Origin: a virus
Length of the DNA: 39,631 nucleotides
Strand: one strand, 5' to 3'
IMG/VR virus record: IMGVR_UViG_3300047548_000098
Span: 1 to 39,631 of that record
Part shown: positions 31,619 to 35,620 of the stretch, in pieces
How the letters are laid out: every line of letters begins with the position of its first letter
How positions within the stretch are numbered: position 1 is the first letter of the stretch
The notes under the pieces: model-generated
The model's database searches: none
Seen by the model: the letters and a program-made list of their open reading frames with translations, nothing else
What the model was told of the DNA's origin: nothing
Translations under genes and position numbers: made by a program

Positions 31619-31841
31619 CTGCCGCTTTCGCTACGCACATTTTAGGAGGTGACAGAGGCAGGGGAGTTGTGCGGCGAACTCCCTTTTCGGTTGCGCTACC
31701 TAGCCTTGTCTTTGCTGCTCTGGTGGGGCAGGTTGTTCGAATCCACAAAAAATATAAAAATTAATCGTAGATACCTGCCCCGTAAGGGGTGGGGGCACTT
31801 CCTTCTTTGACGGCACGGATGCCGGAAAGCCCCCGTAAAAC
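31619..31841 (-). ncRNA. Structured leader or untranslated RNA upstream of the primase gene
   Basis: These 223 bases hold no convincing gene on either strand. Read on the minus strand they contain several strong stems: 31791-31796 with 31829-31834 (six G-C pairs) enclosing 31811-31815/31820-31824; 31778-31781/31786-31789; a nine-pair inverted repeat 31725-31733/31773-31781; and 31662-31668/31677-31683 (seven pairs). The nine-pair stem is followed by ACCA, recalling a tRNA acceptor end, and competes with the small CCCC/GGGG stem. This could be a regulated 5' leader for the primase-helicase or an independent small RNA. Which strand is transcribed is inferred from the flanking genes. Confidence 0.35.
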
Positions 31842-33543: not shown

Positions 33544-33572
33544 ATTGTACTGCCATGTATTATCTTAGTCAA
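33544..33572 (-). promoter_or_regulatory. Sigma70-type promoter
   Basis: The minus strand reads TTGACT, a 17-base spacer, then TACAAT. Both boxes are one mismatch from consensus and the spacing is ideal. The -35 box overlaps the stop codon of the helicase gene. Transcription would begin near 33537 and drive the coiled-coil, HTH, SSB-like, primase-helicase and 28561 genes. A host-type promoter here suggests that the replication block uses host RNA polymerase. This is the clearest promoter I see in the window. Confidence 0.7.
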
Positions 33573-35103
33573 GGATTTGTTTATAAAGTTCTACAACTCG
33601 TGAGTGTACGTCTTGTTTGTTATCAAGCATAGCATACACATGCTTCTCTACAGCCGACCCCGCAAGCTGCACGACAGTCGATGGGTGGCGCTGGCCTGAG
33701 CGATGTACCCGTGCGTTAGCCTGAGCGTATGTTTCAAGGCTCGATGTCGGCCCCCACCAGACCACGGTGTTAGCTGCGGTCAGGGTCACACCATGCGCTG
33801 CCGACTGTGGCTGGATAACCAATACTCGGGGGGTATCAGTTTCTTGAAACCGTTTGAAAATGTCGGTGCGATTCTTGGCCGACACGTCGCCGCTGATAAC
33901 TTCGGTCGGGATACCCTCGGCGTTTAGCTTGTCGTGCAGGATTGAGATGACGTGCTTGAATGGCACGAACACCAGCACCTTCTGACTTGATTCGTCGATG
34001 ACCTCGCGCAGCACCTTGTAGCGGTTCTTAATGTCGAACTCCACCACCTCGCCAGTATCGGAATAGACCGCGCCACACGACAACTGCAGCAGCTTGTTCA
34101 TGTTGACCGCAGCGTTGACCGATGTAACTTCTTCCCCCGCCGCCTGCATAATCATGCGGTTCTTGAGAAGCGTGTAGTACTTCTTCTGTTGCGGCGTTAG
34201 TTCGACTTCGCGCTTAACGTATGTCATTTCCGGCAGGTCTAAGCACTCGTCTTTGGTAAACCGGATGGCCGGTTGCAGCGCATTAAATACCGTGTTGACG
34301 GCGTTCTCTTTGGGTATCCACTTAAACTGGTTGATCTTGACCATTACCATGTCGCGGAACGACGAGAAGAAGCGCGGCACACCTTCGGGGTTGACCAGCT
34401 TAGCCAAGCCGAAAGCGTCCAGAGGGGACTGCGCAGCGGGTGTACCCGTCAGCATCCACAGCCAAGTATCCGGCTTAACCAGACTGTTCAGCGTCTTCCA
34501 GCGTTTAGTCTGGGCGTTCTTGTAGGCGTTGGCCTCGTCAACCACAATCAGGTCAAAGCCACCGGCTTCAATATCGTCACGGATAATCTCTACCCCGTCA
34601 AAGTTGATGATGACGAACTCGGCGTCGCCTTCGATAACCCGCTTGCGCTTGTCTTTAGCACCGTGGGCGATGTCCACCGTGCGGTGCATGGCAAACTTAA
34701 ACAGGTCAGCTTTCCATGCAGCGTCCATAATAGACAGGGGGCAGATAACCAGTACGCGCTTGATCTTACCGGCCTTCATTAGATAGTCAGCCGCCCATAT
34801 AACGGAGCCGGTTTTGCCTGTGCCTTGCTCGTTCAGGCAGAACGCACGACGATTAAGCGTAAGGAACGCCGCCGTAGTTTTCTGGTGGTCAAACGGTTTG
34901 TACTGCCCCGGCCAGTTGTAGTGCGCCGTGATTGGCGATGGCACGTTGCTGATCTTCAAGTTCTTCAGAACCTGTGCTTCATCCAGACCCCACTTAACCA
35001 GCACCTGATTAGCACCTAACTCACGACTGTTTGGGATGACTGTAGTTACCCGTTGTGGGTTTTTAAGTGTTAAAAGAAGTGCTTTGTTGTCAATGATTTG
35101 CAT
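33565..35103 (-). CDS. SNF2/SF2-family DNA helicase
   Basis: The protein has about 512 residues from the ATG at 35103. Superfamily 2 motifs in order are: NEQGTGKTG (Walker A), VLVICPLSI (Ia), LIVVDEAN (a DEAH-box variant, DEAN), WLWMLTGTPA (III), then the second domain with VLVFVPFKHV (IV), VLVIQPQSAAHGVTLTAAN (V) and QANARVHRSGQ (VI). The last two are typical of SNF2-type translocases. Phage members probably remodel replication or recombination intermediates. A TTG at 35121 would add six residues; the ATG is more likely. It begins 33 bases after a terminator hairpin that closes the structured RNA region upstream. Confidence 0.85.
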   Translation of the reverse strand: MQIIDNKALLLTLKNPQRVTTVIPNSRELGANQVLVKWGLDEAQVLKNLKISNVPSPITAHYNWPGQYKPFDHQKTTAAFLTLNRRAFCLNEQGTGKTGSVIWAADYLMKAGKIKRVLVICPLSIMDAAWKADLFKFAMHRTVDIAHGAKDKRKRVIEGDAEFVIINFDGVEIIRDDIEAGGFDLIVVDEANAYKNAQTKRWKTLNSLVKPDTWLWMLTGTPAAQSPLDAFGLAKLVNPEGVPRFFSSFRDMVMVKINQFKWIPKENAVNTVFNALQPAIRFTKDECLDLPEMTYVKREVELTPQQKKYYTLLKNRMIMQAAGEEVTSVNAAVNMNKLLQLSCGAVYSDTGEVVEFDIKNRYKVLREVIDESSQKVLVFVPFKHVISILHDKLNAEGIPTEVISGDVSAKNRTDIFKRFQETDTPRVLVIQPQSAAHGVTLTAANTVVWWGPTSSLETYAQANARVHRSGQRHPSTVVQLAGSAVEKHVYAMLDNKQDVHSRVVELYKQILD

Positions 35104-35135
35104 GATGTGTACGTTTTCCAATGTAATAAAAATCC

Positions 35136-35153
35136 CGCGAATGTATCTTCGCG
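35136..35153 (-). terminator. Intrinsic terminator closing a structured RNA
   Basis: On the minus strand CGCGAA, a six-base loop and TTCGCG form a perfect six-pair stem followed by GGATTTTTATT. It lies between the HNH-like gene and the helicase gene, at the 3' end of three larger stems. It could terminate a small RNA or act as an attenuator ahead of the helicase gene. Confidence 0.65.
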
Positions 35154-35297
35154 TAGGTGCGGAGTCACTAGCCGGGAACTTACCGTGAGCAAGGAGCTAG
35201 CCTCCGCTGCGGGTGTTAGGTGGGAGACCTAGGGGCAAAGTCACTCCAAAACCCCCTAGAACCTAATGCGTCAGGCACTACCCGCTTATCTGACGCA
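35136..35297 (-). ncRNA. Compact structured RNA, predicted three stems plus pseudoknot and terminator
   Basis: Read 5' to 3' on the minus strand: stem C pairs 35297-35290 with 35274-35267 (eight pairs). Stem B pairs 35266-35261 with 35221-35216, with an inner seven-pair stem 35259-35253/35235-35229. Stem A pairs 35207-35202 with 35164-35159, with an inner 35200-35196/35172-35168. The loop of stem C (35285-35280, GCGGGT) is complementary over six bases to the linker between B and A (35214-35209, ACCCGC), giving a pseudoknot. The intrinsic terminator at 35136-35153 ends the element. No open reading frame fits. It is either a small RNA or a riboswitch-like attenuator for the helicase; I recognise no known family. 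Confidence 0.5.
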
Positions 35298-35308: not shown

Positions 35309-35620
35309 TTACTTTTTACGTTCTCGTTTCGATGTTTCCGATACGAGGCCGTGGTTTGATGCACGTTTGAACGACCTGTTGGCGCTGGCCGACTGCACCT
35401 TTACGCCGTCCTTGTTGCTACCACCTTTAGACAGAGCCTTAACGTGGGCAATGTCCTTACCCTCACGCTTGTCGGCTTTGCCGTTACCGTTAGCATCCTT
35501 ACCTGTCTTATCCATGGCGCGACGAGCACGTTGTCGCTCCATCCGATCCTCGTGTTCGCCACGAGCTTTTTGTTTCTGGTACTCCGCCTTGTAAGGGCGA
35601 GGCTTGTTTACGTATGGCAT
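35309..35620 (-). CDS. Small basic protein with degenerate HNH-like motif
   Basis: This 103-residue, strongly basic protein is Arg/Lys-rich in its first half (PRPYKAEYQKQKARGEHEDR). It then reads KDIAHVKALSKGGSNKDGV and VQSASANRSF, which resembles the (D)H...L..GG.N....N beta-beta-alpha core of HNH nucleases but lacks the usual Cys pairs. It may be a small DNA-binding or nicking protein, or a degenerate relative. AAGGAG precedes the ATG at 35620. It lies directly upstream of the structured RNA. Confidence 0.6.
   Translation of the reverse strand: MPYVNKPRPYKAEYQKQKARGEHEDRMERQRARRAMDKTGKDANGNGKADKREGKDIAHVKALSKGGSNKDGVKVQSASANRSFKRASNHGLVSETSKRERKK

Follow-up and report, generated by a model that had tools for sequence, protein, structure and literature searches.

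A pseudoknotted RNA upstream of a phage SNF2 helicase gene very probably belongs, as a divergent member, to an RNA family that Rfam 15 lacks

The viral DNA analysed here (39,631 nucleotides, positions 1 to 39,631 of IMG/VR record IMGVR_UViG_3300047548_000098, hereafter the window) contains a spacer of about 200 bases between a mini-HNH-like gene and an SNF2 helicase gene. An earlier note had proposed that this spacer encodes an unannotated pseudoknotted RNA with its own terminator, possibly a small RNA or an attenuator of the SNF2 gene. In this study, we asked whether such an RNA exists, whether it has relatives, and what it may do. As shown in Table 1, the three stems, the inner helices, the pseudoknot and the last hairpin that had been described are all present in the sequence. 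They lie on the minus strand (RNA 35297 to 35136), as do both flanking genes. The pseudoknot coordinates proposed earlier, 35209-35214 with 35280-35285, are exact, and the helix really comprises 8 pairs (35285-35277 with 35216-35209), in which 35278-35277 pair with 35215-35216 past the bulged A35279. The extension to 8 pairs was shown by relatives. RNAalifold on 33 of them gives the same helix with the same bulge, and the alignment of the window to the covariance model R1 described below agrees. In line with the proposed lack of an open reading frame, none of at least 60 aa in the ORF list of the window overlaps 35136-35297.

The 103-aa mini-HNH-like protein matched PHROG 4590 (unknown function, E 6.9e-5), and a Pfam search of it gave no match. 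We take its HNH likeness from its H-N-N spacing. The protein is conserved next to the RNA slot. The helicase matched Pfam SNF2-rel_dom (1.3e-23), and its homologues mostly align from residue 7 of the listed ORF. A second structured RNA of the same gene cluster, int-alpA RNA (RF02996), lies at 31638-31710 of the window on the minus strand, directly upstream of a DUF927 gene (37.6 bits against a gathering threshold of 35.8). Another viral contig, L240 (IMGVR_UViG_3300043399_000121), has the SNF2, mini-HNH, PDDEXK, polA and Gam proteins of the window at 100% identity and carries the same RNA.

Table 1. Parts of the RNA of the window and the genes on either side (positions in the window)
Feature	Position	Strand	Details
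Mini-HNH-like gene	35309..35620	-	103 aa; stop codon 11 nt ahead of the RNA
P1 hairpin	35267..35297	-	35297-35290 with 35274-35267, 8 bp; TGCGTCAG / CTGACGCA
P1 loop	inside 35267..35297	-	15 nt; ATAAGCGGGTAGTGC
Pseudoknot 5' strand	35277..35285	-	GCGGGT-(A)-GT; A35279 bulged
P2 hairpin	35217..35265	-	between P1 and the pseudoknot 3' strand
P2a	35265-35261 with 35221-35217	-	TAGGT/ACCTA
P2b	35259-35253 with 35235-35229	-	CTAGGGG/CCCCTAG
Pseudoknot 3' strand	35209..35216	-	ACACCCGC; 8 pairs
P3 hairpin	35159..35207	-	GCGGAG/CTCCGC, 35207-35202 with 35164-35159
P3 upper stem	35200-35196 with 35172-35168	-	CTAGC/GCTAG, then apical loop
P3 apex	35191..35196	-	CUCCUU, C/U-rich motif of the family
P3 3' bulge	35166-35165	-	GA
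P4 hairpin	35136..35153	-	CGCGAA-GATACA-TTCGCG, 35153-35148 with 35141-35136
Terminator-like tail	35128..35135	-	GGATTTTT after P4; GGA then five T
SNF2-type helicase gene	33565..35103	-	downstream of the RNA; ATG at 35103

The pairing density had been called unusual for phage intergenic DNA. This description fits the pseudoknot layout and not the folding energy, because the nested energy is only modest. A perfect 8-bp stem with a loop of 9-18 nt and a perfect 6-nt downstream partner was found in 0/1000 dinucleotide shuffles of the element, and the same perfect layout of P1 plus pseudoknot occurred in just one of the 162-nt tiles (step 81) laid over both strands of the window. When G-U pairs were allowed, 193/1000 dinucleotide shuffles had such a layout. 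The nested folding energy gave a z of -2.15 for the minus strand (7/200 shuffles as good) and -0.69 for the plus strand (49/200). A plus-strand reading was rejected, with its weaker fold and an R1 score of merely 6.1 bits. The proposed intrinsic terminator held in part. A consensus scan of the window picks up a terminator-like site, but the U run begins 3 nt past the stem and is a minority feature among phage relatives. The scan found no promoter for the RNA in the window.

Relatives were collected starting from the best 80 SNF2 relatives in viral contigs, read upstream of SNF2. Part of these loci contained an RNA of the same layout, with the loop GUAAGGURYGAGUG or one close to it. IMG/VR was scanned with a pattern of this loop and its partner, which fixes several pseudoknot letters, and 115 stretches in viral contigs were found. 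The collected loci hold 121 pattern places (92 distinct sequences). The RNA of the window shares slot, strand and gene order with 105 of these, which lie between a mini-HNH-like gene and SNF2 (both neighbours are in reach at 99, one at 6). Seven places are directly behind SNF2 (L086, L096, L100, L101, L127, L162 and L183; two distinct sequences), and nine are elsewhere. Six of the nine were judged real. They lie upstream of a terminase-like gene (L092, L165), upstream of a polymerase-like gene (L105, L110; both gene names come from reading the sequences), or after the last gene of a run (L097, where the next genes are convergent, and L180, where the contig ends soon after). The other three were rejected as chance pattern matches, L094 and L166 because they fall within a long open frame and L130 because it has no P3. 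Of 15 virus records searched in full, 13 had one copy per record and two had none.

The family structure was examined in two alignments. A3 comprised 57 of 62 non-redundant members, with the window left out; the omitted members L087, L131, L138, L141 and L195 have long P3 inserts. A2 comprised 33 of the 40 members with P4, cut at P4. The 3' ends of A3 were set by a script seeking the P3 partner, and those of A2 were trimmed without reference to P3. P1 and P3 letters are absent from the search pattern. Unguided RNAalifold on 33 relatives predicted P3, some of P4, and the helix of the pseudoknot with its single bulged A. The share of paired cells in A3 was 99.8% for the pseudoknot, 99.6% for lower P3, 91.2% for upper P3 and 79.1% for P1; the corresponding values in A2 were 99.6%, 99.4%, 87.1% and 77.3%. 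The covariation score was 0.728 in A3, against 0.234 for shuffled partners and at most 0.146 for slid controls, and 0.684 in A2 against 0.231 for shuffled partners. Compensatory changes in homologues, which the earlier note had set beforehand as its refutation test, were thus looked for and are present.

The helices differ in how they vary. In A3, P1 shows changes on both sides at all 6 pairs, with about a fifth of its cells unpaired. Five of the 8 pseudoknot pairs are invariant across the 57 relatives, at least in part because the search pattern fixed their letters. The three free pairs stay paired through exchange of U-A/C-G, G-C/A-U and U-G/U-A/C-G, with one exception. Pairs with a change on both sides numbered 17 in A3, compared with 16.2 in shuffles (reached by 196/500), and further pair types numbered 64 compared with 60.2 (16/500), barely above chance. 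G-U cells against A-C cells numbered 22 to 1 in the pseudoknot, 39 to 2 in P3 and 11 to 11 in P1, and 25 of the 39 in P3 are in upper P3, which is unaffected by trimming. The excess of G-U over A-C in the pseudoknot and P3 therefore speaks for an RNA of minus-strand sense.

The apex of P3 contains CCT in 45/57 relatives, against 24.7 expected by shuffling, and CCTTTC in 16/57, against 0.98. P4 stems differ among relatives with pairing retained, and their loops are GAAAGA, CGUAA or similar; some phage relatives have no P4. In the predicted family fold shown by this comparison, the UAAG...AGUG loop of the P1 hairpin forms a pseudoknot of 8 pairs with the strand immediately 5' of P3. The fold also has a variable P2, a P3 that bulges at GA on its 3' side and exposes its C/U-rich apex, and P4 in many members. 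Two further contacts were tried and rejected. Pairing between the P3 and P1 loops (AAGG with CCTT), apparent in A3, was not counted as a helix because cellular variants with UUAGG, UCAGG and UUUGG keep CUCCUU-type loops. Kissing between P3 (CUUUC) and P4 (GAAAG) fails in members with CGUAA P4 loops, as read by eye.

We then compared the RNA of the window with this family using two models built from separate sequences. R1 was built from phage relatives without the window. R2 was built from 12 cellular sequences only, namely 11 Polynucleobacter regions and one uncultured bacterium, with the near-copies L226 and L228 left out of 14. With default filters, R1 missed the RNA of the window. With filters off, it was the best R1 match (35302-35157, minus, full length, 15.5 bits, no non-standard pair), with a weak E of 5.9e-4 over 2.5 kb and 0.0093 over the whole window (first of 14; next 0.42). 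It also came first with R2 (35297-35130, minus, 15.6 bits), with a likewise weak E of 2.9e-4 over 2.5 kb (next 0.42), and this alignment extends into P4. P3 of the window aligns to both models without non-standard pairs. Aligned by hand, the pseudoknot register and the position of the bulged A are those of the family. Columns 19-80 and 23-76, which are G-C in all 57 relatives (letters fixed by the pattern), are C-G and U-A in the window, changed on both sides. The loop letters of the window deviate, with UAAGC and UAGUG against the UAAGG and GAGUG of the family, and the relatives' counterpart of the P2 region is variable. The window has the P3 and P4 traits of the family, which are UGA before CTCCGC, the CUCCUU apex and a P4 with a six-base loop.

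Taken singly, both scores are weak. Membership is very likely because two models built from separate sequences agree and because register and slot are those of the family. As an outlier, the window shares its subclass only with L240. A pattern for this subclass found 9 stretches, of which L240 was the only one identified as this RNA; R1 with default filters gave no convincing match on the nine. Rfam 15 at gathering gave no match to the RNA in the window or in 32 loci, 23 of them RNA-bearing, nor at E up to 1 in 12 cellular loci, and below threshold near the RNA of the window there were chance-level matches only. The claim of an unannotated pseudoknotted RNA thus agrees with the covariation, the model matches and the Rfam searches. 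These results indicate, at the level of sequence comparison, that the RNA of the window is very likely a divergent member of an RNA family uncatalogued in Rfam 15.

Members of the family were also found in cells. The loop-plus-partner pattern gave six stretches in bacterial genomes, of which two were members by R1, in Polynucleobacter sp. 73C-SIWE (L198, 51.3 bits) and in an uncultured bacterium (L199, 38.8 bits). The other four (L196, L197, L200, L201) were rejected, as the full structure is missing. In Polynucleobacter, R1 matched 13/151 genomes, and R2 matched 16/186, with 14 matches of full length and two (G100 and G832) of about half length. A family-level draw searched with R1 gave 2/299 genomes, both already known from the genus, and an order-level draw searched with R2 gave 4/399, three of them from the genus. 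Phage and cellular copies belong together, because R2, built from cellular sequences, recovers 13/20 phage loci tested. Among 13 chromosomal regions, the next gene is convergent in 11 and co-directional in L221 and L230, the RNA is placed after one of two unrelated gene types in 12, and in 12 the match is preceded at 15-124 nt by the end of a co-directional gene with 80 codons or more. A T-rich tail follows P4 in 13/14 cellular copies by a loose rule (at least 4 T in 8; one row unmeasured). Under the more stringent requirement of 5 or more T in 8, a T run follows the last hairpin in 7/38 measured phage copies, with two of 40 unmeasured. A blastn search of a Polynucleobacter copy against plasmids gave one 27-base P4-like match (E 0.5). 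In the Polynucleobacter chromosomes of L220-L232, the same surroundings recur around many of the RNA copies, with flanking genes of about 635 aa and 95 aa in common. Variable cargo such as restriction, HigBA-like and WYL-type genes (named by reading) gives this neighbourhood the look of an integration hotspot.

Among phages, the RNA seems optional in SNF2 loci, because R1 with default filters finds it in 23 of the best 80 and gives no match in the other 57. With filters off, R1 gave one match (E 0.76) in 15 SNF2 loci with other or no structures. In regions of the SNF2-bearing annotated phages Rollin, RHph_TM3_14A, Xp15 and Effie, R1 found no match up to E 10. Neither the RNA of the window nor that of relative L089 matched annotated phages by blastn, and of the RNA of relative L114 the P4 end alone matched.

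Other structured sequences were seen in the same surroundings. Upstream of SNF2, L051, L053, L056, L065 and L070 have a tRNA-like RNA in which an acceptor-like stem encloses a T-arm-like stretch such as GGTTTGAATCC. The slot of L065 holds both a tRNA-like RNA and a pseudoknotted RNA. ARAGORN (L051, L053, L065, L070) and Rfam (L051, L065) find nothing in these. By eye, L002, L052, L057, L058, L060, L063 and L035 upstream of SNF2, and L288 behind a mini-HNH-like end, hold other structured-looking sequences unlike the window family, and those of L035, L058, L060, L063 and L288 end in a P4-type hairpin. R1 with filters off gave no match at E up to 1 in L002, L035, L052, L057 and L058. A hairpin of at least 6 bp around ACACC/AGACC lies within 100 nt before the SNF2 start in 31/80 relatives (L002-L081), with or without the RNA.

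A module of its own, widespread in phages, is the P4-type hairpin TGACACCYCGGAAAGACGRGG (L261-L337 and others; L256, L257, L259). It occurs in at least 120 stretches in viral contigs, behind many unrelated-looking sequences. Among the matches listed, a tRNA lies within 400 nt at 13/109 distinct sites, compared with 2/109 random places, and at 56/109 sites some open frame of 100 codons runs across the hairpin. In the single locus searched, this hairpin had no convincing Rfam match. L105, L165, L049, L054, L317 and L323 have in common a recurring stretch around ACACGCATGG and, further on, its partner CGTGT(T)GG. This stretch lies near window-family RNAs and behind the P4 module (8/109 listed sites within 300 nt, control 1) and is possibly another RNA.

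We next weighed what the RNA may do. A chance fold, or a hairpin acting at the DNA level as in a replication origin, agrees with the location in a replication module and with the unremarkable nested folding energy. However, covariation in both A3 and A2, with G-U frequent and A-C rare on one strand in the pseudoknot and P3, and the copies in bacterial chromosomes rule against it, and we regard it as extremely improbable. That the RNA is a self-cleaving ribozyme, or acts as a decoy for an RNA-binding defence or toxin of the host, is very unlikely in our estimate. Its compact pseudoknotted core and accessory distribution would suit such a role, as would the different structured-looking sequences in the same slot of other phages, but no Rfam family matches. 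An attenuator or riboswitch of SNF2, in which an aptamer-like core would decide termination at P4 ahead of the gene, was one of the two functions proposed in the earlier note. The 105/121 places in the slot before SNF2 and the five T after P4 of the window speak for it. However, copies are also found after SNF2, before polymerase-like or terminase-like genes, or at the operon end, the chromosomal copies mostly face a convergent gene, and few phage copies have a T run after P4. In addition, the pairing of the P3 loop with the ribosome-binding region of SNF2 was not above control (44 loci; 5.25 pairs with its own region, 5.31 with swapped and 5.19 with shuffled ones). Therefore, if the loop is an anti-Shine-Dalgarno-type seed, its target would be elsewhere. 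A switch of SNF2 is thus quite unlikely, and a dedicated SNF2 attenuator is unlikely as the family function because of the terminator-ended cellular copies, the convergent next genes, and the phage copies after SNF2 or before other genes. Such a switch needs SNF2 behind it and a conserved terminator; neither is family-wide, and therefore two readings are left, an autonomous RNA and a 3'-UTR element.

As a 3'-UTR or intercistronic mRNA element, the knot would protect the upstream message from exonucleases or mark an RNase cut before SNF2. In 57/62 members the core begins 5-118 nt (median 24) after the stop codon of an upstream ORF, and the chromosomal regions have the co-directional upstream genes described above. 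The HRC-28-1 motif of Polynucleobacter was read in this way by its authors, in the part of the paper available to us (PMC8632094). A sigma-70-like promoter above shuffles lies just upstream in 16/62 members, where it may overlap the end of the upstream gene, and this speaks against the 3'-UTR reading. A processed or 3'-UTR element fits too because of the upstream stop codons and because 46/62 members and the window have no such promoter. On the other side, the conserved core and C/U-rich loop exceed the needs of a generic roadblock, and most SNF2 loci gave no R1 match. We consider the 3'-UTR element somewhat unlikely. An autonomous small noncoding RNA, to which we give about an even chance, is the likeliest reading and is preferred over the 3'-UTR element. 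Of the two functions in the earlier note, the small RNA is the one favoured by the cellular copies, with their terminator-like tails and convergent next genes, while the attenuator is disfavoured by the places, T runs and loop pairing described above.

As an autonomous small RNA, it would be transcribed from its own promoter in some phages, and elsewhere it may be excised or read from the replication-gene transcript, immediately after a stop codon. Together, pseudoknot and P3 would make a rigid core that displays the CUCCUU-type loop to a partner in trans, candidates being the ribosome, a protein, or an mRNA at its ribosome-binding site. In phages the RNA may be an accessory carried in the replication module, and in Polynucleobacter chromosomes it looks like a stand-alone unit with a terminator end. 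A bolder version is doubtful at present. It holds that the RNA is a new class of pseudoknotted trans-acting RNA, accessory in phages and Polynucleobacter, whose anti-Shine-Dalgarno-like loop takes over or tunes translation during infection, with the phage slot elsewhere filled by unrelated structured RNAs.

These results describe an RNA family that is supported by covariation, is missing from Rfam 15, and comprises many phage members as well as a chromosomal branch. They suggest that these phages have, in their replication module, an RNA slot whose structured RNAs are interchangeable. They also provide specific sequences for testing the RNA, and a bacterial genus in which to do so. If trans-acting, the RNA would be a regulatory RNA common to phages and bacteria; if cis-acting, it would be an unusually conserved intercistronic mRNA element.

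Among described RNAs, HRC-28-1 is the nearest in style. In the portion available to us, the paper (RNA Biol. 2021, PMC8632094) covers 26 bacterial genomes and describes motifs of Polynucleobacter. There HRC-28-1 is mostly from Polynucleobacter, has several stems and a final terminator hairpin, is followed by a gene in the opposite direction, and is suggested to be a 3'-UTR element. The Polynucleobacter host, the multiple stems, the terminator hairpin and the oppositely directed next gene are shared with the window family. However, HRC-28-1 lies most often between a PRK05408 (yggX-like) gene and rpiA, and window-family copies lie elsewhere. At the rpiA loci of three carrier genomes, R1 with filters off gave at most 2.5 bits and the loop motif was absent from the spacer; R1 matches once per genome in these carriers, at another place. 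Another candidate motif of the same paper may be the window-family RNA, the comparison having been made without its supplements. At the level of titles and the starts of abstracts, no description of the window-family RNA was recognised in the literature.

The int-alpA RNA is catalogued and lies in the same window, but it differs in place and family and does not match 35136-35297. In H-type pseudoknot RNAs, and in ribozymes such as pistol, a hairpin loop pairs with a downstream strand. The RNA of the window differs from these in its conserved letters and helix order, and it has no Rfam match. Small RNAs with C/U-rich loops, such as the staphylococcal UCCC-loop RNAs, pair with ribosome-binding sites. 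Like them, the RNA of the window would expose a C/U-rich hairpin loop complementary to a Shine-Dalgarno-type sequence. Unlike the staphylococcal RNAs, it carries this loop on a conserved, predicted pseudoknotted core.
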